Shown here: in pieces, positions 19,621 to 29,744 of the stretch
How positions within the stretch are numbered: position 1 is the stretch's first letter
How the letters are laid out: every line of letters starts with the position of its first letter
Assembly (NCBI GenBank): GCA_029976695.1
Contig: JARQTN010000151.1
Location: 5,411 to 39,876 of the forward strand
DNA length: 34,466 nucleotides
Source: Lewinellaceae bacterium
Lineage (GTDB): Bacteria; Bacteroidota; Bacteroidia; Chitinophagales; Saprospiraceae
Direction: 5' to 3'
Program-made: the position numbers and the translations under genes
Notes under the pieces: model-generated
The model's input: only the letters and a program-made list of their open reading frames with translations
What the model was told of the DNA's origin: nothing
Database searches by the model: none

Positions 19621-20184
19621 GTGATCCCTGAGGAGAAAATTATCAAGAGGTGTTTAAAAGGTGACCGTCGCGCTCAGAAAGAGCTATACAGTCGGTATAA
19701 AAATGCTTTTTTCATGCTGGTGCAGCGTTATGCAGCCCATCGTGAAGAAGCACAGGATTATCTTCAGGATGGCTTCATCAAGATCTTCAAGGACCTGAAG
19801 CAGTATGATTCAAGGAAAGGCAGTTTTTATTCCTGGGGCCGTAAAGTGATGATCCATACTGCCCTGCAGCATATCCGGAAAAGGCGCATTTTGATTGCTG
19901 ACTCGCAAATTGAGGATCACAATGATACTTTTTCCACAAACGCCGACGCATTTGAAAACCTGAAGACGCAGGATTTGTACCGGTTGATCAGTGAATTGCC
20001 GGTTGGATATAAATCAGTCTTCAACATGTACGTCATTGAAGGTTATTCACACAAAGAAATCTCAGCGTTATTGGATATCACCGAAAGCACATCTAAATCT
20101 CAATTATATAAAGCAAAGAAAGCCTTGCAAAAGAAACTGGAAGGCCTGGTTTATGAAGAGTCTGTGAAGTATGAGTCAAACTAA
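19621..20184 (+). CDS. RNA polymerase ECF-type sigma factor
   Basis: A 187-residue sigma-70 family protein of the extracytoplasmic-function group, starting with GTG at 19621. Region 2 is visible at about 22-88 (LYSRYKNAFFMLVQRY, EAQDYLQDGFIKIFKDLKQYD, FYSWGRKVMIHTALQHIRKRR). Region 4 is at about 120-172 (LPVGYKSVFNMYVIEGYSHKEISALLDITESTSKSQLYKAKKAL). The next gene begins 14 bp before the stop codon, so the two are translationally coupled. In Bacteroidota such pairs usually encode a sigma factor and its membrane partner, and the downstream protein has a suitable cytoplasmic N-terminus and membrane helix. Confidence 0.92.
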   Translation: MIPEEKIIKRCLKGDRRAQKELYSRYKNAFFMLVQRYAAHREEAQDYLQDGFIKIFKDLKQYDSRKGSFYSWGRKVMIHTALQHIRKRRILIADSQIEDHNDTFSTNADAFENLKTQDLYRLISELPVGYKSVFNMYVIEGYSHKEISALLDITESTSKSQLYKAKKALQKKLEGLVYEESVKYESN

Positions 20185-21733
20185 GAAACCATTCGATTTA
20201 GAATCCTTTTTTCGCAAAAGGATCAAAGCAGCTGAAGATGCAGGGGCATCCCAGCAGTGGAACGAACCAGATGATGGTATGTGGGACCAGATTGAACAGG
20301 CTTTGCCAGAACATAATCCGTTCAGATACAGGTTTTTGCCATGGATCATCGGTATTACTCTTTGCGGCATGATCGTATGGCTCTACATGCAAAACAGGTC
20401 GTTAAAACAGGAAATTGCCTTATTGGAGCAGCAATCAATAGATTTACCCGGGGATAGCCATTCAATGGTAAAAATGCCGGACGATACGGCTGAAAGTGAT
20501 TTGATCAAAAAGCCGGAAGACACTGGAATTGACCAGCAAACAAGGATAAATGATGGTGCTTTCGGGAAAATAGATACTGAGGATATCTCACATGCAGATG
20601 AATTAAGAGTCCTCGCTGAACCGATAATCCAGAAATCAGATACACAGGGTACTCTCAATTCAAAAGTCAAAAGTTATTCGAAAGCCACGAATATGGTTAC
20701 ACAAGGAGAAAACGATGTTTCACTTGTTGAGAATCCGGCTGATCAAGAGTCCTCAAAAAAGATATCGCAGCACACCGAAGAAGGACCCGTTGGAAAGCAC
20801 GTCATTACAAAGCAATCGATGGTTGATGTCAACTTGCGGGAGGAGCGTCCGGTAAATGTTCTGCCTTCTGCAAATATCATTCATACAATCCCCGATCGGA
20901 AAATCCAGGTACCACATACCCTCCCGAACGTACAGTTTATCGAGCCCGTGCAGAAGAATCGGCATGCATGGCAGCTGTCCATTGGGTATGAACCCTCTTT
21001 TGCCAAGCTAAAGAATACAACACAATACCCGGATGCGCCTGAATTCAGGGGAATCAACGATCTAGGTGTATGGTCAGATGCCTTCTCAGTGCGTCTCTCA
21101 AGAAACCTGAATAAAGGCCTTCAGGTATTCTCCGGCATCCGTTACGGGGCATACCAGTATCAGACTGCATACTACATCGCACTTCCCTATGATCCGCTGC
21201 TTGAGGTAGAAGGAAATGACGGGAACTTCACAAGTGATTTCAGCCATTCATTTCCATCCCCGGTTGGTGATGTTGAAGCAAATTTTGGATTGCTCAGGCT
21301 TGCAGAAGACGATATCGAGCCCCAAACCATCCTGAACCTGGACCTGCATGCAAGACACAAGCTGAAACTGATCGAGATTCCTCTTGGAGTTTCAAAATCA
21401 ATCAATATTTCAAAACGTTTCAACCTGACAGGCAGCCTGTCCCTGATCCCTGGCATCGTCACTGGAAAAGAAAGCACTGCGTATGCTTTTGAATCCCATC
21501 ACCAGGCAATGCATCATCGGTACTCCGGCTTTAAAGGAAAAACAAAAGCATACAATCACCTGACTCTATCGAGCGGAGTTGACCTCAGGTTCTCCTATCT
21601 CTTTTCACCACAAATTGGTGTTTTCGCTGGTGGTGGATTCCAGGCAGGTTTAACAAATGTGTATAGTGATTTGAATGTCCATAGCAAAATCAGGGCGTAC
21701 AGGATGTCATTCGGGATTACAAATTATTTCTGA
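20171..21733 (+). CDS. Membrane-anchored protein with C-terminal beta-barrel-like domain, putative sigma partner
   Basis: A 520-residue protein overlapping the sigma gene by 14 bp. Residues 1-52 are cytoplasmic-looking and polar (DLESFFRKRIKAAEDAGASQ, MWDQIEQALPEHNPFRYR). One membrane helix follows (about 55-73, FLPWIIGITLCGMIVWLYM). Residues about 75-255 are a low-complexity polar linker. From about 263 a beta-rich domain begins (WQLSIGYEPSFAKL, VRLSRNLNKGLQVFSGIRYGAYQYQ, LIEIPLGVSKSINISKRFNLTGSLSLIPG, FAGGGFQAGLTNVYSD) and ends in Phe, like an OmpW/outer-membrane beta-barrel protein. The N-terminal part probably binds the sigma factor like an anti-sigma protein. One chain with both an inner-membrane helix and a barrel-like domain is unusual. 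Confidence 0.8.
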   Translation: MSQTKKPFDLESFFRKRIKAAEDAGASQQWNEPDDGMWDQIEQALPEHNPFRYRFLPWIIGITLCGMIVWLYMQNRSLKQEIALLEQQSIDLPGDSHSMVKMPDDTAESDLIKKPEDTGIDQQTRINDGAFGKIDTEDISHADELRVLAEPIIQKSDTQGTLNSKVKSYSKATNMVTQGENDVSLVENPADQESSKKISQHTEEGPVGKHVITKQSMVDVNLREERPVNVLPSANIIHTIPDRKIQVPHTLPNVQFIEPVQKNRHAWQLSIGYEPSFAKLKNTTQYPDAPEFRGINDLGVWSDAFSVRLSRNLNKGLQVFSGIRYGAYQYQTAYYIALPYDPLLEVEGNDGNFTSDFSHSFPSPVGDVEANFGLLRLAEDDIEPQTILNLDLHARHKLKLIEIPLGVSKSINISKRFNLTGSLSLIPGIVTGKESTAYAFESHHQAMHHRYSGFKGKTKAYNHLTLSSGVDLRFSYLFSPQIGVFAGGGFQAGLTNVYSDLNVHSKIRAYRMSFGITNYF

Positions 21734-22806: not shown

Positions 22807-23676
22807 TTACACCCTCAACTGTTCATATGCCGGCATCTGCTTGACATACCGTTTCAGCTTGTGGATCGCCTTGTCCCTGATCTGGCGGACGCGCTCTTTG
22901 CTCAGGTCGAGATCCTGTGCGATATCAGATAGCGTTTTCGGGAATGGGGCATTCAGTCCATAGTATTCCGAGACGATATACCTGTGTTTCGGCGGCAACC
23001 CTTTCAGGATATTCTCAAGGTATATCCTGCTGCTTTCATTCTGGGAAAGCTTGTGATCCGGAGACTTCATGCTCTCATCTGCAAACAGGTTTCCAACGGT
23101 TGTATCGGTATCATGACCGGCAGGTTTGTCGAGGGACGTTGTTTTCTGACCTACCTGGAGCACCAGGGATACCTTTTCTTCGGGAATCTCCATGATTTCA
23201 GAAATTTCCTCATGGCTGGGCTCCCGGTCGTTGGACTGGACAAACTGTCTGCGTACTTCGAAAATCTTGGACTGGAGGGTTTGCATATTGAGGGGACTGC
23301 GGATCTTCCGGCTTTTCTCGTTGATGGCCTGGATGATCGACTGCCTGATCCACCAGACCGCGTAGGAAATGAATTTGAATCCGCGTGTTTCATCAAAACG
23401 ATGGGCCGCTTTGATCAGTCCAACATTTCCCTCATTGATCAGGTCGGGCAGTGAAAGGCCGCAATGCTGGTATTTCTTTGCAACCGACACGACAAACCTC
23501 AGGTTATGGCGGACTATTTTTGTCATTGCCGCATCCCTCTCCGGACCACGAGTGCTGAACAGACGGTACTCCTCATCAGGTGACAACACATCATACTTTG
23601 AGATATCGTTCAGGTATTTATCCAGAGATTTCTCGTCCCTCCGGGTGATGGATGCAGTAATTTTAATTGATCTCAT
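22807..23676 (-). CDS. RpoD/RpoS-like alternative sigma-70 factor
   Basis: A 289-residue sigma-70 protein of the short Bacteroidota architecture. Region 1.2 is at about 17-50, and region 2 at 55-125 with HNLRFVVSVAKKYQ, LSLPDLINEGNVGLIKAA and the core-binding and melting segment FKFISYAVWWIRQSI. Region 3 spans about 150-200 and region 4 about 225-280 (LPPKHRYIVSEYYGL, DLDLSKERVRQIRDKAIHKLKRY). The housekeeping protein of the phylum has very similar segments, but residues such as KYDVLSPDEEYRLFSTRGPERD and the C-terminal tail differ from the housekeeping protein as I remember it, so this is more likely a group 2 stress sigma. A 7/8 match to the -7 box (TATTTTTC) lies just upstream. Confidence 0.9.
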   Translation of the reverse strand: MRSIKITASITRRDEKSLDKYLNDISKYDVLSPDEEYRLFSTRGPERDAAMTKIVRHNLRFVVSVAKKYQHCGLSLPDLINEGNVGLIKAAHRFDETRGFKFISYAVWWIRQSIIQAINEKSRKIRSPLNMQTLQSKIFEVRRQFVQSNDREPSHEEISEIMEIPEEKVSLVLQVGQKTTSLDKPAGHDTDTTVGNLFADESMKSPDHKLSQNESSRIYLENILKGLPPKHRYIVSEYYGLNAPFPKTLSDIAQDLDLSKERVRQIRDKAIHKLKRYVKQMPAYEQLRV

Positions 23677-23729: not shown

Positions 23730-24098
23730 TCAACTCAACGCCTGAACCTCGGAGCGGATATTGTACCTGTCTACGATACGTTCTGCAAATGCTTTGTGTC
23801 CGTATGGTGCCAGGATAAAGAATTTACTCCCGGAATGTCTGGCTATCTTGGAAAGTAGTTTCCATTTCGTCACCATCCGATTCAGGTTTTCTGTATTCCG
23901 GTCTGCAATTTCAATGTATCTTTTCTTGCTCCGCAAAAACGCTGTGATATCAGGTCTCATCGGGTTATTCGTTTTCTGCCTGATAAATGATTTTGGGTCC
24001 TCATATTCATCAATGACGGATTTAATGGTGTGCATGCCTTTCTTTTGGGCCCAGTCTATCGCTTTGCGAATCATTTTTTCCTTTTTCATCACATTCAT
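23730..24098 (-). CDS. Small protein resembling a degenerate PD-(D/E)XK nuclease fold
   Basis: A 122-residue protein from Met at 24098; 24125 and 24089 are other possible starts. The N-terminus is basic (KKEKMIRKAIDWAQKKG). The middle reads RPDITAFLRSKKRYIEIAD, an Asp50 and Glu63 spaced as in PD-(D/E)XK nucleases, followed by KWKLLSKIARHSGSKFFILAPYG, a pattern seen in several small restriction-like proteins. The third catalytic residue, normally Lys two positions after Glu63, is Ala here, so it may be inactive or use another residue. The fold is an inference from pattern. It lies just upstream of the alternative sigma gene on the same strand. Confidence 0.6.
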   Translation of the reverse strand: MNVMKKEKMIRKAIDWAQKKGMHTIKSVIDEYEDPKSFIRQKTNNPMRPDITAFLRSKKRYIEIADRNTENLNRMVTKWKLLSKIARHSGSKFFILAPYGHKAFAERIVDRYNIRSEVQALS

Positions 24099-24220
24099 TT
24101 TAAGTTTGGAAAATAAGGGGAACATATACCTTACCCGTATATCTCGTAATTGTTCGGTCAGCGGCAGAAATACCAGGGAAATGCATGAGTTGCCATAAAG
24201 GACCGATCTATACAGTATGG

Positions 24221-24828: not shown

Positions 24829-25344
24829 TCATTTTTTAGACCAGGCAGTATACATCCAGTGACGCTCTTCCGTCGCTTTCATGTATCCGTTCACCATGTC
24901 TATCGTAGCTGAATCACCGCATTCCTGTGCCGCATTGACGACATCAATCATGTGTGATACCAGGGTCACAAGATCTGATTTGATTTCCTGGACCATTTCA
25001 TATGAAGAAAGAGGTTGTGACGTCTCTTCAATGGTCGAATGTTCAAGATATTCCTGCATCGTGCTCATTGGGTGCTTGCCGAAAACGCGGATACGTTCAG
25101 CAATTTCGTCAATCCTCGTTCGGACATTGTGATAATCGATCTCGAATTGTTCATGCAACTCGAAAAAATCCTGTCCTTCGATATTCCAGTGATAATTTCT
25201 AAGTTTCTGATAATGCACCTGCAGATTTGCGAGGAGCATGTTCATTGCTGTAACAAGTTCTGCTGTTTCCATCTTTGAAAACCCGAGCTTGATATTCGGT
25301 TTTTTGGCTTCCTGGGTTGCATTGTTTGTTGTGATGGTTTCCAT
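24829..25344 (-). CDS. dps: DNA-protecting ferritin-like protein Dps
   Basis: A 171-residue ferritin-like protein that forms dodecamers, oxidises iron with peroxide and protects DNA. The ferroxidase residues follow the Dps pattern: His52 (NYHWNIEG), His64 and Glu68 (FELHEQFE), Asp79 and Glu83 (RIDEIAERI). The N-terminal tail of about 25 residues holds several Lys and could contact DNA. It is the last gene of an operon: the preceding stop codon is only 2 bp from this ATG. Expression with membrane-stress genes is plausible. A strong hairpin follows the stop. Confidence 0.93.
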   Translation of the reverse strand: METITTNNATQEAKKPNIKLGFSKMETAELVTAMNMLLANLQVHYQKLRNYHWNIEGQDFFELHEQFEIDYHNVRTRIDEIAERIRVFGKHPMSTMQEYLEHSTIEETSQPLSSYEMVQEIKSDLVTLVSHMIDVVNAAQECGDSATIDMVNGYMKATEERHWMYTAWSKK

Positions 25345-26050: not shown

Positions 26051-26410
26051 TTAAGATTTGGCGCTTTCTTCCTCAAGTTGATGTTCCAGGTCAGCAATTG
26101 CTTTCTTTGCCCTGGCAACGCCTTTTGAGAATGAATCTGACATCGTTGAAGAAACATCATTCGTTTCTGCCTGTACATGATTCATTGCGCCTTTTGCCAG
26201 TTCAATACTCTTTTCGATTAACTGGCCAGCATGATTTTTAATCGATTCGGCTTCGTCAGTCACATAAGACTTGACTTTATCCACCTGCTCAATAGAGGCA
26301 TCAGCAACTTGAGTGCGTACTTCCCTGCCCTGCTTGCTGTTCAACCAGTAACCAGCTGCAGCTCCTGCTAATGCGCCAAAAATCAAATAATTTCTTTCTC
26401 TGTTTTCCAT
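26051..26410 (-). CDS. YtxH-domain protein
   Basis: A 119-residue protein. Residues 7-23 (NYLIFGALAGAAAGYWL) form one membrane segment directly followed by NSKQGREVRTQ, the YtxH signature of a glycine-rich helix and a charged tail. Residues about 35-115 form a long amphipathic helix (DKVKSYVTDEAESIKNHAGQ, IELAKGAMNHVQAE, GVARAKKAIADLEHQLEE). Related proteins in other bacteria are induced in stationary phase or by general stress and lie at the membrane. It heads the operon YtxH, DUF1469, 106-residue protein, Dps. No exact -7 box was found in the 120 bp upstream. Confidence 0.8.
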   Translation of the reverse strand: MENRERNYLIFGALAGAAAGYWLNSKQGREVRTQVADASIEQVDKVKSYVTDEAESIKNHAGQLIEKSIELAKGAMNHVQAETNDVSSTMSDSFSKGVARAKKAIADLEHQLEEESAKS

Positions 26411-26533: not shown

Positions 26534-27031
26534 TCAGCTGCGGAGAGGAAAAATTTGCTTTGTTTTTACAATTCTCTTGAGCTGGGACTCAATACGTGTA
26601 TACATACCGAGAATTTTCTTTGTAATGTGATAAATGTCAGTGGGTATCCCTTTCCGGTATAATTGGTGCCTGACATAATTCATCTGATCTGATTCGATCT
26701 TATAAAACATCGAACACATGCTGATCTCATCTTCAAAATTGGCATGACTGCTCATTTTGTGAGAACTGACTCCCTTGCGTTGGGGAGGTGCAACAGCTTC
26801 AGGGAATACACCATACGGCTCATTGATCAACTTGAGCATTTTTTTCTTTGCATTGATCAGGCTTGTGAGCAGCATTTTGAACGACTTCGAAAAAGACTGG
26901 TGTTGATTGATCGATTCCAGAACCTTGACATCCTCTTCCAGCATTACCTTGATCTGTGAGAGTACGGTAATGCTTGAAATCTTTTCTTTTCCAATATTAA
27001 ATAATTCAGCTCCGCGTGTTTTCATATTCAC
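26534..27031 (-). CDS. Helical cytoplasmic protein of unknown function
   Basis: A 165-residue protein with no signal or membrane segment; Met3 is another possible start. The first part (KISSITVLSQIKVMLEEDVKVLESINQHQSFSKSF read in parts) and the end (IYHITKKILGMYTRIESQLKRIVK) are predicted helices, joined by a flexible middle with Met and Cys (SMCSMFYKIESD). I do not recognise a family. A stem-loop follows its stop codon. It lies 54 bp downstream of an XRE-type regulator gene on the same strand and may be in its transcript. Confidence 0.65.
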   Translation of the reverse strand: MNMKTRGAELFNIGKEKISSITVLSQIKVMLEEDVKVLESINQHQSFSKSFKMLLTSLINAKKKMLKLINEPYGVFPEAVAPPQRKGVSSHKMSSHANFEDEISMCSMFYKIESDQMNYVRHQLYRKGIPTDIYHITKKILGMYTRIESQLKRIVKTKQIFPLRS

Positions 27032-27085: not shown

Positions 27086-27598
27086 TTATTGATTTGATGG
27101 TACGCTCTCAAAAAATCTTTTGTTTGCTTCAGTAAGCATGTGCATGACGGAAAGCAGGTCTTCATACAAGCTGAACAGCGCACCTTCATCCTCAGATCTT
27201 TCCATTCCTATCTTTGTGGATCGCAGGGTTTCGTATCCATCGAGGATCCTGCTGAATTCGCCAGTATCCAGACTGAGTTTATTCAGGGCTTTGATCAATT
27301 CTCCTTTATCTGCTGGTCGTCTTTTCGAGGATGGAGTTTCTGATACAGGTGTGTGGGGCCCTGGATCCTCGACCATCTCATTCAGCATCCGGGAAGGCCG
27401 GATATCGAACCAGGCACAAATGGCCAGGAATACGCTGGCATTGGGTTCGACGATGCCGGTTTCATAGGATGCGATCTTCTGTCGTGTCAGTCCGAGTTCG
27501 GCAGCAAGTGCACCCTGGCCGATACCTTTTCCCGTGCGCAGGGTGCGCAGGTTTTTACCAAAATTGGTCGGGGAAGGAATGCGCTTTTTCATTGCCAT
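27086..27598 (-). CDS. XRE-family transcriptional regulator (copy A)
   Basis: A 170-residue DNA-binding protein from the ATG at 27598; the frame runs 8 codons further upstream. The HTH_3 domain (about 13-66) reads LRTLRTGKGIGQGALAAELG, then LTRQKIASYETGIVEPNASVFLAICAWFDI, a standard Cro/C1-type fold. A Pro/Ser/Lys-rich linker follows. The C-terminal helical domain (about 100-165) includes FSRILDGYETLRSTKIGMER and LYEDLLSVMHMLTEANKRFF. That domain resembles the C-terminus of the divergent neighbour (27730-28278), so the two are paralogues. A 12-bp sequence shared with the downstream ECF sigma promoter region lies 40 bp upstream. Confidence 0.9.
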   Translation of the reverse strand: MAMKKRIPSPTNFGKNLRTLRTGKGIGQGALAAELGLTRQKIASYETGIVEPNASVFLAICAWFDIRPSRMLNEMVEDPGPHTPVSETPSSKRRPADKGELIKALNKLSLDTGEFSRILDGYETLRSTKIGMERSEDEGALFSLYEDLLSVMHMLTEANKRFFESVPSNQ

Positions 27599-27637
27599 TG
27601 TCTTTGAAAACACTTGAAACAATGATCCAATTTACCG

Positions 27638-27649
27638 ATTTTGTGAATA
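27638..27649. promoter_or_regulatory. 12-bp motif ATTTTGTGAATA between divergent XRE genes
   Basis: The same 12 bases occur at 28411-28422 upstream of the ECF sigma gene. Its position between two divergent regulator genes is that expected of an operator for one or both. Overlapping palindromes ATCATGAT and ATGATCAT lie about 10 bp further on. Confidence 0.4.
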
Positions 27650-27729
27650 AAATAAACATCATGATCATAATTGAACATTCTCGACCATTACGTGTAAGAA
27701 GCATGTAATCCATCGCAAGATATTCCTGT

Positions 27730-28278
27730 ATGTCTTCAAATACACCACTTTCAAATAATATCCGGGTCCTGAGGAAAAAACGCAATCTCAGTCAGGAACA
27801 ATTAGCTGCCAGACTTGGGATCAAACGATCCAATATTGCCGCATACGAGAGTAAAAACGTCGAGCCACGGTTACGGATCATCCTGGAAATGGCGAAACTT
27901 TTTGATATTCAACTGAAAACATTCATCGAAAAGAAGCTTGATCAAGAGGATCAATACAAGCGTTTCAAAGATGAGGAGGAAATTCGGAAAAATACCGCCC
28001 GGCTGCCTGTGACCCGGGAAATTCCACCCAAAAAGGTGGTGAACTCCTTCAAGGAAAGTTCGTTAAAAATCAGGAAAATACTGGAGGGATTCAAAGCCTT
28101 CTACCAGTTCAGGAAAGAACGGATAAAACAAAAGACACCCGAGATCTCAAAACTGATGTTCGATATTGAAAATTTTATTCAGCTCACAGAGCATCTGCTC
28201 ACCCAAAATGAATTTGTGATCAATTCAATCTCCCCGGGTGACCAGAAGACAGGCCACGAGCATGAATCTGCCGAATAA
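27730..28278 (+). CDS. XRE-family transcriptional regulator (copy B)
   Basis: A 182-residue DNA-binding protein. The HTH_3 domain (about 8-63) reads IRVLRKKRNLSQEQLAARLG, then IKRSNIAAYESKNVEPRLRIILEMAKLFDI. A charged linker rich in Lys and Glu follows. The C-terminal helical domain (about 105-170) holds SLKIRKILEGFKAFYQFRKER and KLMFDIENFIQLTEHLLTQNEF. It shares with copy A the order IL-G, then D-(I/L)-(E/L) and LT-(E/Q)-N, which supports a common ancestor. The genes are divergent with a 131-bp gap. An RNA-level hairpin region follows the stop, then the ECF sigma gene on the same strand 205 bp on. Confidence 0.9.
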   Translation: MSSNTPLSNNIRVLRKKRNLSQEQLAARLGIKRSNIAAYESKNVEPRLRIILEMAKLFDIQLKTFIEKKLDQEDQYKRFKDEEEIRKNTARLPVTREIPPKKVVNSFKESSLKIRKILEGFKAFYQFRKERIKQKTPEISKLMFDIENFIQLTEHLLTQNEFVINSISPGDQKTGHEHESAE

Positions 28279-28297
28279 CCCATCCATCCAATATCGA

Positions 28298-28357
28298 TTC
28301 TGTCTTCAGTGCCCTAAAGAGCTCCGAAGAGCTTCTAACTTCAGTTCGGAGACAGAA
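28298..28357 (+). other. Competing hairpins between XRE copy B and ECF sigma gene
   Basis: Long arms CTCCGAA (28322-28328) and TTCGGAG (28345-28351) pair, extended by TTCTGT (28298-28303) with ACAGAA (28352-28357). A different hairpin, AGCTC-CGAA-GAGCT, uses part of the same left arm, so the two cannot form together. No T tract follows. Confidence 0.45.
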
Positions 28358-28390
28358 ATATAAAACCATTTCAAATATCACAAATCGCCC

Positions 28391-28440
28391 AAATTGTGAA
28401 TATTAATTACATTTTGTGAATATTTTGAACAAATTGGGTG
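28391..28440. promoter_or_regulatory. 20-bp-phased repeats upstream of ECF sigma gene
   Basis: AAATTGTGAATATT (28391) and ATTTTGTGAATATT (28411) are spaced exactly 20 bp, two helical turns, with a partial third unit AAATTGGGTGA at 28431. The outer parts also form an inverted pair (TCGCCCAAATTGT and ACAAATTGGGTGA, 11 of 13). The second unit contains the 12-bp motif found between the XRE genes. Confidence 0.5.
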
Positions 28441-28483
28441 ATGATCACGTTGTATCATATGTATTGTTCACGAAAAATCCTGT

Positions 28484-28996
28484 ATGACAAGGAAAGAATT
28501 CAGAAAACTTCACAAAAAATATACCCCTGCACTTTATCATTTTGCCAAGCAACTCACGGAAGATCTGGTCGAATCGGAAGATCTCGTCCAGGAGACAGCT
28601 TTGAAAGCATTTCGAAGCAGGCATACGTTCCGTAAAGATTCCAGTTACAAAAGCTGGGTGTTCACGATCCTGAAGAACACATTTATCAATAAATATCATA
28701 AACGGAAAAGACGCGGTGTCGTCCACAAGCCTGTTGAGGAACTTTCTTTTGCTATTGACCGGAAAGGGATGGCCAAAAACAGGGGATATTCAAATCTTCG
28801 TGTCCAGGAAATCCGCTCGAATATTGAGGAACTCAGTTATAAAAGCAGGATGCCCCTGCTCATGCACGCTGAAGGTTACCAGTACAATGAAATAGCGGAC
28901 AAACTCGATATCCCGATCGGAACTGTAAAGAGCAGGATCAGTTTTGCACGGCAAAAACTCAGGCAAAAAATGAAAGCTGCAGCGATCGCCTCCTGA
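28484..28996 (+). CDS. RNA polymerase ECF-type sigma factor
   Basis: A 170-residue sigma factor. Region 2 is at about 10-78 (YHFAKQLTEDLVESEDLVQETALKAFRSRHTF, then SYKSWVFTILKNTFINKYHKRKRR read in parts). Region 4 is at about 112-165 (SYKSRMPLLMHAEGYQYNEIADKLDIPIGTVKSRISFARQKLRQ in parts). The linker between them is short and basic. No anti-sigma gene is adjacent; the next gene points the other way. Instead, phased repeats and the 12-bp XRE-linked motif lie upstream, so control may be at the level of transcription by the XRE proteins. That is an inference from position. Confidence 0.93.
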   Translation: MTRKEFRKLHKKYTPALYHFAKQLTEDLVESEDLVQETALKAFRSRHTFRKDSSYKSWVFTILKNTFINKYHKRKRRGVVHKPVEELSFAIDRKGMAKNRGYSNLRVQEIRSNIEELSYKSRMPLLMHAEGYQYNEIADKLDIPIGTVKSRISFARQKLRQKMKAAAIAS

Positions 28997-29090: not shown

Positions 29091-29744
29091 TCAGAACATC
29101 ACGTGCGTTCGGGCCCGCACTCCATTATAGTCACATTCCAGCACATATTGTCCGGATGCAAGGTGAGCAATAGAGACCATATTACCGCTTTCAAGGTGGT
29201 CAGTTTCAAAGACCACGTTGCCTGAAAAATCGAATAGCATCACATGTTCCACCCTTTCAGAGGGAGGCCCCTCGAAAAAAAGGAGGGCACTTTCCTTGTC
29301 CGTGTAGGCAACAATTGAATCTGGCTGACCGGTAAAATGCAGGGATACCACATTTGAAAAGGTTTCCACCCCGAACATATCTTCCTGGACCAGCCGAAAA
29401 TAGTACTGGCCGGTCATCAGGTCCTCAAACACAAATTTGTATTCCGGAGAGTCAAAACTCTCTGATGTGGCCTCAATCCAGCCGATCTTTTCCCAGGACT
29501 GGTTGTTCAATTTCATTTCAACGGAAAATCCATTATGTTCCAGATCGACAGCGGACATCCAGGTAAGCAGCACCTGGTCCCTCAGCAATTTGCCCTTGAA
29601 ATAGACAAGCTGAATGACTTCAGGGCGTTCATCTTCGACCCATTTGACTGCATGGTCAATGGAAAAAGCGGAAAACGACAACCCGAAAACCATCCAGCAC
29701 AATAATCCGGTAAAAAACATTCTATGTGAACTTGACACCATCAT
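29091..29744 (-). CDS. Short secreted protein with type IX sorting-tail-like C-terminus
   Basis: A 217-residue protein with a signal peptide (FFTGLLCWMVFGLSFSAFS). Residues about 45-135 form a beta-sandwich-like domain: VLLTWMSAVDLEHNGFSVEM, then EKIGWIEATSES, YKFVFEDLMTGQYYFRLVQEDMFG and SNVVSL. This is the fibronectin-III-like pattern that precedes the sorting tail in many Bacteroidota surface proteins. The last 55 residues (VMLFDFSGNVVFETDHLES, IAHLASGQYVLECDY) match a type A T9SS tail: Gly-Asn turn, a Leu-x-x-Gly-x-Tyr block and a final short strand. With no catalytic or large binding domain in front, its role is unclear; it may be an isolated tail domain. Confidence 0.75.
   Translation of the reverse strand: MMVSSSHRMFFTGLLCWMVFGLSFSAFSIDHAVKWVEDERPEVIQLVYFKGKLLRDQVLLTWMSAVDLEHNGFSVEMKLNNQSWEKIGWIEATSESFDSPEYKFVFEDLMTGQYYFRLVQEDMFGVETFSNVVSLHFTGQPDSIVAYTDKESALLFFEGPPSERVEHVMLFDFSGNVVFETDHLESGNMVSIAHLASGQYVLECDYNGVRARTHVMF

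Follow-up and report, generated by a model that had tools for sequence, protein, structure and literature searches.

The window analyzed here is a 34,466-nucleotide stretch of a Lewinellaceae bacterium genome (assembly GCA_029976695.1, contig JARQTN010000151.1, positions 5,411 to 39,876; genome of 4.12 Mb, 97% complete). It harbors two divergent genes for XRE-type regulators, named XRE-A and XRE-B, and, downstream of XRE-B, a gene for an extracytoplasmic function (ECF) sigma factor, named SIG. The three genes are a conserved block in Saprospirales, in which a 17-bp palindrome can overlap the -35 boxes of ECF-like promoters upstream of SIG and XRE-B. With somewhat better than even confidence, we regard this block as a stress ECF sigma module that is controlled at the level of transcription, has no anti-sigma factor and is gated by XRE proteins. 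Its genes are (window positions):

27086 to 27592, minus strand: XRE-A, an HTH_31/HTH_3 domain followed by a C-terminal two-helix hairpin (open reading frame, Pfam, AlphaFold2)
27730 to 28278, plus strand: XRE-B, a paralogue of XRE-A, an HTH_3 domain followed by a C-terminal two-helix hairpin (open reading frame, Pfam, AlphaFold2)
28484 to 28996, plus strand: SIG, an ECF sigma factor of 170 amino acids (Pfam Sigma70_r2/r4_2)

The divergent orientation of the XRE genes and the position of the sigma gene, as given in the initial annotation, agree with the open reading frames and with Pfam. HTH_3 (PF01381) and HTH_31 score above cut-off in both regulators; for XRE-A the ATG at 27592 is the likely start, and the open reading frame list begins at a TTG at 27622. 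The C-terminal domains, which had been described as similar, are homologous: hhalign aligned them with a probability of 97.5 and a score of 66.8, while 20 column-shuffled controls peaked at 15.9. SIG contains sigma70 regions 2 and 4 only (PF04542 and PF08281), the composition of an ECF sigma factor, and among the 25 NCBIfam models listed for it the superfamily model TIGR02937 alone is above cut-off. It shares 46-58% identity with the relatives adjoining XRE-B in L097-L107, L111 and L112. No anti-sigma gene was recognized next to SIG in the window, as the initial annotation also held; its neighbors are XRE-B and a gene on the opposite strand (29091-29744) without Pfam match. Nor was one recognized among the recurrent neighbors scanned in relatives (YtxH, holin-like, AI-2E permease, DUF2383, MscS, PRC, thioredoxin and receiver families), a scan that covered all but some unnamed neighbors.

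When public genomes were scanned with a profile of XRE-B, 39 loci were found, whose XRE-B relatives belong to Saprospirales (phylum Bacteroidota). SIG follows XRE-B on the same strand in 37 of them, so that the gene order, whose conservation had been proposed as a check, proved stable; the exceptions are L155 and L175, a short contig, where the DNA examined lacks SIG, and neither entered the motif counts. The two XRE genes are arranged divergently, like those of the window, in 19 of the 39 loci, and these relatives plus the window make up the 20 loci of the XRE-A clade. The locus DNA examined contains no XRE-A in 18 of the 37 SIG loci, mostly from Phaeodactylibacter, Lewinella and Neolewinella (here the sister clade). 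In counts over 38 loci, which leave out L097-L136 as largely the same genomes as L137-L174, the neighboring families are YtxH (F2) in 31, holin-like in 23, AI-2E permease in 21, Dps (F5) in 17, DUF2383 in 16 and MscS in 13. Judged by these family names, which come from representatives, the neighborhood is a stress-type cluster. Between XRE-B and SIG, L162, L164-L170, L172 and L173 have receiver-domain and thioredoxin-like genes on the opposite strand (Pfam for L166 only).

The regulatory elements of the block in the window are:

27638 to 27649, plus strand: first 12-mer ATTTTGTGAATA, exact match
28411 to 28422, plus strand: second 12-mer ATTTTGTGAATA, exact match
27642 to 27658, unstranded: putative operator O1, TGTGAATAAAATAAACA, TGT-N11-ACA, between XRE-A and XRE-B
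28395 to 28411, unstranded: putative operator O2, TGTGAATATTAATTACA, TGT-N11-ACA, upstream of SIG
28415 to 28431, unstranded: putative operator O3, TGTGAATATTTTGAACA, TGT-N11-ACA, overlapping the SIG -35 box
27672 to 27699, plus strand: putative ECF-type promoter of XRE-B, TGAACA, GAAC-N17-GTAAGA
28426 to 28454, plus strand: putative ECF-type promoter of SIG, TGAACA and GTTGTA (GAAC-N18-GTTGTA)

The 12-mer had been put forward as the motif linking the XRE genes to the sigma gene. Both copies lie where they were reported, and the link stands on gene order and a common palindrome, but the 12-mer is not a free element: it is the left half of the palindrome plus flank. It is rare, with only three exact copies in the 4.12-Mb genome (backward control, 0), the third within a long open frame. 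A copy with two mismatches lies at 28391-28402, and allowing up to two mismatches the window has 8 matches, which is chance level (13 of 100 shuffles reach 8). A word of at least 12 letters common to both intergenic regions occurred in 23 of 2000 dinucleotide-shuffled pairs. The sharing of the 12-mer is by itself only mildly surprising, and the weight is carried by the comparative data.

Across the 20 loci of the XRE-A clade, the 4000 bp upstream of SIG contain 29 copies of TGT-N11-ACA (100 shuffles: mean 3.5, maximum 10) and the 3154 bp between XRE-A and XRE-B contain 17 (100 shuffles: mean 1.2, maximum 5), against a single copy inside the SIG gene, where 0.7 is expected. No other spacing between 5 and 16 exceeds what the shuffles give, save N9 upstream of SIG (14 vs 3.6, maximum 9). 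With all 64 triplets tried at 15 spacings, the palindrome ranks first between the XRE genes and second upstream of SIG, after GTG-N9-CAC, a form of it moved inward by one base. It also ranks first in 16 distant divergent XRE/ECF pairs (21 vs 1.43, maximum 5). These pairs (L117-L132, of which L130-L132 are further XRE matches) were chosen for an XRE gene near an ECF gene, so that adjacency is not evidence there while the palindrome is; several of this second set have a very clean copy, TTTGTAAATAATAATTACAAA, beside the ECF gene. O1, a predicted site, is a palindrome near the regulator's own promoter, as looked for in an XRE/HTH_3 regulator. In the window's genome TGTGAATANNNTNNACA has 32 matches with at most one mismatch, vs 7 for the control, and 21 of the 30 that were placed were called intragenic (by a script that misplaced 4 short loci). 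In the same genome TGTGAATTGCTTTCACA was seen in L234 (1501-1517) between rpoN, identified by eye, and a peptidase-like gene; this site, closer to the peptidase-like gene than to rpoN, was set aside.

The ECF-like promoter box was likewise observed at levels above expectation. GAAC-N17/18-GTTATA, with at most one mismatch in the second part, is present in 10 of 20 SIG-upstream regions (200 shuffles: mean 0.12, maximum 2). The shorter [CT]GAACA[AT] precedes XRE-B in 20 of 38 loci (60 shuffles: mean 3.63, maximum 8) and SIG in 13 of 37 (5.6 expected, maximum 11). The same box is found upstream of stress-type neighbors, namely YtxH (18/31; 3.75 expected), Dps (8/17; 1.8), DUF2383/PA2169-like (15/16; 2.3) and thioredoxin genes (9/10; 1.3), and upstream of MscS in 4 of 13 (1.6 expected, maximum 5). 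It is not enriched before XRE-A (1/20; 1.6 expected), the holin-like genes (2/23; 3.4) or the AI-2E permease (0/21; 2.2). Eight aligned thioredoxin promoters read GAAC-N16-CGTT and sister-clade Dps promoters GAAC-N16/17-CGTT. Thioredoxin promoters and part of the Dps promoters in the sister clade have this EcfG-like geometry, and the clade of the window has GTAAG or GTTATA. A scan for the sigma70 consensus was discarded, giving 5 sites vs 4.0 expected.

The position of the palindrome relative to the box was compared between gene groups. Among the 28 SIG and XRE-B regions that have a GAAC[AC] box, 12 carry a TGT at the distance that puts the palindrome's right end into the -35 box, vs 1 of 63 effector regions with the box (Fisher p 1e-6); when two of the three TGT bases suffice, the figures are 22/28 vs 14/63 (p 5e-7). 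That the overlap separates these two groups is the main support for control being exerted on the SIG and XRE-B genes and not on the effectors.

According to the model we favor, SIG would read (C/T)GAACA-N15 to 17-GT(T/A) promoters, near the EcfG consensus, and would activate itself in a positive feedback, XRE-B and the stress genes (Dps, YtxH, DUF2383 and thioredoxin). XRE-B, with XRE-A where present, would bind the 17-bp palindrome. Since this lies over the -35 boxes of SIG and XRE-B and hardly ever over effector promoters, the XRE protein would gate the amount of sigma factor and not the stress genes directly. Repression is preferred because the palindrome has bases in common with the -35 box: in the likeliest case the XRE protein represses, thereby setting a threshold, and its production under SIG would close the loop. 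XRE-A, which is not box-driven, may be a constitutive partner interacting with XRE-B, and the signal is perhaps sensed by the C-terminal hairpin. The switch first suggested, in which opposing XRE proteins control each other and the sigma factor, is retained for the connection between the XRE pair and SIG. Its mutual control is not supported, given the lack of box enrichment before XRE-A and the 18 SIG loci without XRE-A; the data favor feedback of XRE-B on the sigma factor, to which one clade has added XRE-A as a partner.

Several observations weigh against the model. In the XRE-A clade, 9 of the 20 SIG-upstream regions and 3 of the 20 XRE-B regions are without a GAAC[AC] box, the YtxH and Dps genes of the window have no GAAC box in the 150 bp upstream, and a sigmaA-type TAnnTTTG occurs in 7 of 20 SIG-upstream regions (mean 3.1). 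Counted over whole genomes, the promoter patterns are not clearly in excess: GAACN{17,18}GTTNTA is below its backward control in 11 of 14 genomes (a poor control, of different composition), CGAACAWN{14,16}GTAAG equals its control (58 vs 58 over 15 genomes), and GAACATN{13,15}CGTTNTA gives a weak 32 vs 20 over 15 sister-clade genomes. A genome-wide regulon defined by pattern was rejected on these counts. Furthermore, the SIG promoter of the clade without XRE-A looks like a sigma54-type one (see below), so that SIG may not be gated by XRE in every clade. Finally, we estimate the operator centre at about -37 from the start, where activators can also act; lambda CI at PRM is an activator acting from such a position.

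This position would suit the opposite sign, which we consider unlikely but worth keeping in view. XRE-A and XRE-B would then be activators bound at about -37 to -57 of the promoters of SIG and XRE-B, where they would recruit either the polymerase that contains SIG or the housekeeping one, and the effectors would need SIG only. Operator copies both upstream of and overlapping the -35 box, such as O2 and O3, spaced 20 bp apart in the window, are consistent with activation, as is an overlap nearly confined to the SIG and XRE-B promoters. However, the ACA half, which is conserved, falls among the -35 bases expected to be read by sigma region 4, and this favors competition; operators are also found away from that position.

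The XRE proteins could instead be protein-level partners of SIG, anti-sigma-like and acting via the C-terminal hairpin, with the DNA sites used for autoregulation only; we hold this to be improbable. The hairpin is common to XRE-A and XRE-B: both AlphaFold2 models have a helix-turn-helix (HTH) domain and then a long two-helix hairpin, formed in XRE-A by helices 96-127 and 134-163 (mean pLDDT 85) and in XRE-B by helices 101-131 and 137-167 (mean pLDDT 86). In the sampled genomes it is found almost only in the window's own family, with 13 of 248 genomes across the order, 12 of the 13 in that family (profile A7), and 5 of 395 across the phylum, 4 of the 5 in that family (profile A6, which failed to recover the genome of the window); both draws are sparse. 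The wider XRE family also keeps near ECF genes, since 10 of 13 lower-ranked XRE matches (L054-L066) have one within ~1.5 kb, and the idea that SIG is the sole ECF adjoining such an XRE was rejected. On the other hand, comparison of the XRE-B model with the PDB by Foldseek gave weak matches (best E 0.0046), led by XRE-type repressors that include a phage repressor and SinR. No anti-sigma factor is named among the best 50 of 472 matches, all weak and mostly HTH proteins. Besides, DNA binding alone explains the palindrome upstream of SIG. Simple co-location, with an autoregulated XRE pair, SIG as an unrelated neighbor and repeats arising by chance in AT-rich DNA, is very improbable: the shuffled pairs that reach the 12-mer and the chance-level near matches in the window fit it, but it is largely contradicted by the gene order in 37 of 39 loci, the N11-specific enrichment and the recurrence in distant XRE/ECF pairs.

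The sister clade appears to have a different input. A TGGCAC-N5-TTGC-like -24/-12 element is present in 15 of its 18 SIG-upstream regions (L154, L156-L170, L172, L173), with 0.07 expected, and in none of the 20 loci of the XRE-A clade, window included, where sigma54 control of SIG was therefore rejected. A TGA-N10-TCA palindrome occurs 14 times vs 0.98 in the 18 regions, often ~70-120 bp further upstream of the -24/-12 element, and a sigma54-activator gene was seen in three loci of the clade (family F33; Pfam for one). TGT-N11-ACA also occurs upstream of sister-clade SIG (9 vs 1.7, maximum 5). These elements suggest a sigma54-to-ECF cascade, as known for HrpL, whose gene has a sigma54-type promoter according to the cited section of PMC8999054.

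The context of pattern matches is more telling than whole-genome counts. In the clade of the window, 16 of the 58 CGAACAWN{14,16}GTAAG matches are inside module stretches, a small part of ~71 Mb; 7 of these 16 come from the promoter alignment and 1 had been seen before the pattern was chosen, leaving 8 new. In 15 sister-clade genomes, the context of 30 of the 32 GAACATN{13,15}CGTTNTA matches was checked, and 17 of these fall between genes, where the baseline is 10.5% (p 7e-10). At a distance of 45-59 nt, 13 of the 30 precede genes encoding TerC-like proteins (5 genomes), Dps (3), a 63-amino-acid protein (2) and DUF1328-, DUF4142- and MgtC-like proteins (1 each). These names were given by eye except for Dps, whose sites had contributed to the choice of the pattern, and 2 of the 13 sites were called inside an opposite frame.

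Further genes of the window, on the other side of XRE-A, are:

26534 to 27031, minus strand: 165-amino-acid protein, CGAACA box 38 bp upstream (27070, minus strand), without Pfam or NCBIfam match
26051 to 26410, minus strand: YtxH-like protein (Pfam PF12732, 34.6 bits, under the 37.5 cut-off; family F2)
24829 to 25344, minus strand: Dps/ferritin-like protein (Pfam PF00210; family F5)
23730 to 24125, minus strand: 131-amino-acid protein, promoter-like CGAACA...GTAAG at 24156-24130 (minus strand)

The gene of the 165-amino-acid protein is a possible target and possible head of a same-strand row comprising YtxH, a holin-like protein, a 107-amino-acid protein and Dps. The site before the 131-amino-acid protein gene is one of two CGAACAWN{14,16}GTAAG matches in the 4.12-Mb genome. 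An RpoD-type sigma gene (22807-23676, minus strand) lies ~3.4 kb from XRE-A, and the genome has three further relatives with 47-52% identity; some of these are probably group-2 sigma paralogues. At 19621-21733 a second ECF-like sigma gene is directly followed by the gene of a 520-amino-acid protein with one likely membrane segment, identified by eye; by eye, too, the two look like an ordinary sigma/anti-sigma pair.

To our knowledge, it is not settled how Bacteroidota, which lack sigmaB and RpoS, organize their general stress response. In this module a sigma factor comes with its probable promoter and targets and with a putative operator of 17 bp, all directly testable in Portibacter, Neolewinella and Phaeodactylibacter strains. 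With two likely inputs in sister clades (XRE/ECF-type vs sigma54-type), this one sigma module is also a case for studying the rewiring of sigma control.

ECF sigma factors under transcriptional control without an anti-sigma factor are already known. The relevant sections of an ECF review (PMC8999054) list HrpL/ECF32, SigE/ECF39 and SigH of P. gingivalis/ECF114, with TetR-linked ECF203 as a proposed case, and describe a PadR-linked ECF265; for ECF203 and ECF265 the sigma gene has the regulator gene next to it. As far as those sections describe them, the present block is like ECF203 and ECF265 in having no recognized anti-sigma gene and a regulator gene adjoining the sigma gene, and unlike them in having an XRE pair and a 17-bp palindrome over the -35 box. 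The predicted sigma54-type SIG promoter of the sister clade is like that of hrpL in the same source. The term 'XRE' has no occurrence in the main text of that review or of the ECF114 paper PMC12596196. The titles and abstracts listed by searches of the open-licence literature, a scope that leaves most subscription journals outside, contain no description of an XRE-linked ECF module or of a Saprospirales stress sigma factor, and an XRE-gated ECF module is without report in the portion of the literature searched.

Among Bacteroidota, the ECF114 factors of Bacteroides (SigR-1, SigH-1) are tied to oxidative and starvation stress in the cited part of PMC12596196, and SIG would likewise be a Bacteroidota ECF tied to stress, a likeness drawn from descriptions. 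EcfO of Bacteroides/Phocaeicola is also a Bacteroidota stress ECF, but, as given in the excerpt of PMC13114119, has an anti-sigma factor, Reo, spanning both membranes, while none was recognized beside SIG. According to the corresponding section of PMC9723704, the -10 box of a flavobacterial ECF-type motif is CGT.

The XRE pair resembles SinR/SlrR-SinI in its XRE-type HTH followed by C-terminal helices and in the presence of two paralogous XRE proteins, and both the sequence and the fold comparison with the PDB have SinR among their matches. SinR, SlrR and SinI form a switch in Bacillus. Unlike there, the target here would be an ECF sigma gene, and the likeness rests mainly on the HTH.

The alphaproteobacterial general stress response is the other system to compare. 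The EcfG promoter consensus is GGAAC-N16-CGTT, and the S. granuli regulon includes an mscS channel gene, as stated in the part of PMC7083833 cited here. Like that response, so far as this source describes it, the module has an ECF sigma factor, GAAC-N16-CGTT in 8 thioredoxin promoters and MscS in 13 of 38 loci. Unlike it, the control is apparently transcriptional, through XRE, and the phylum is Bacteroidota; neither NepR nor PhyR was recognized among the neighbors looked at, and no genome search was aimed at either. We propose, tentatively and as a view that could well be wrong, that Saprospirales have a general stress response of their own, independent of that of alphaproteobacteria. An ECF sigma factor would act on EcfG-like promoters, a SinR-like XRE pair would replace the anti-sigma factor and partner switch, gating only the sigma gene and XRE-B, and the system would have been rewired to a sigma54 input in the Lewinella/Phaeodactylibacter branch.

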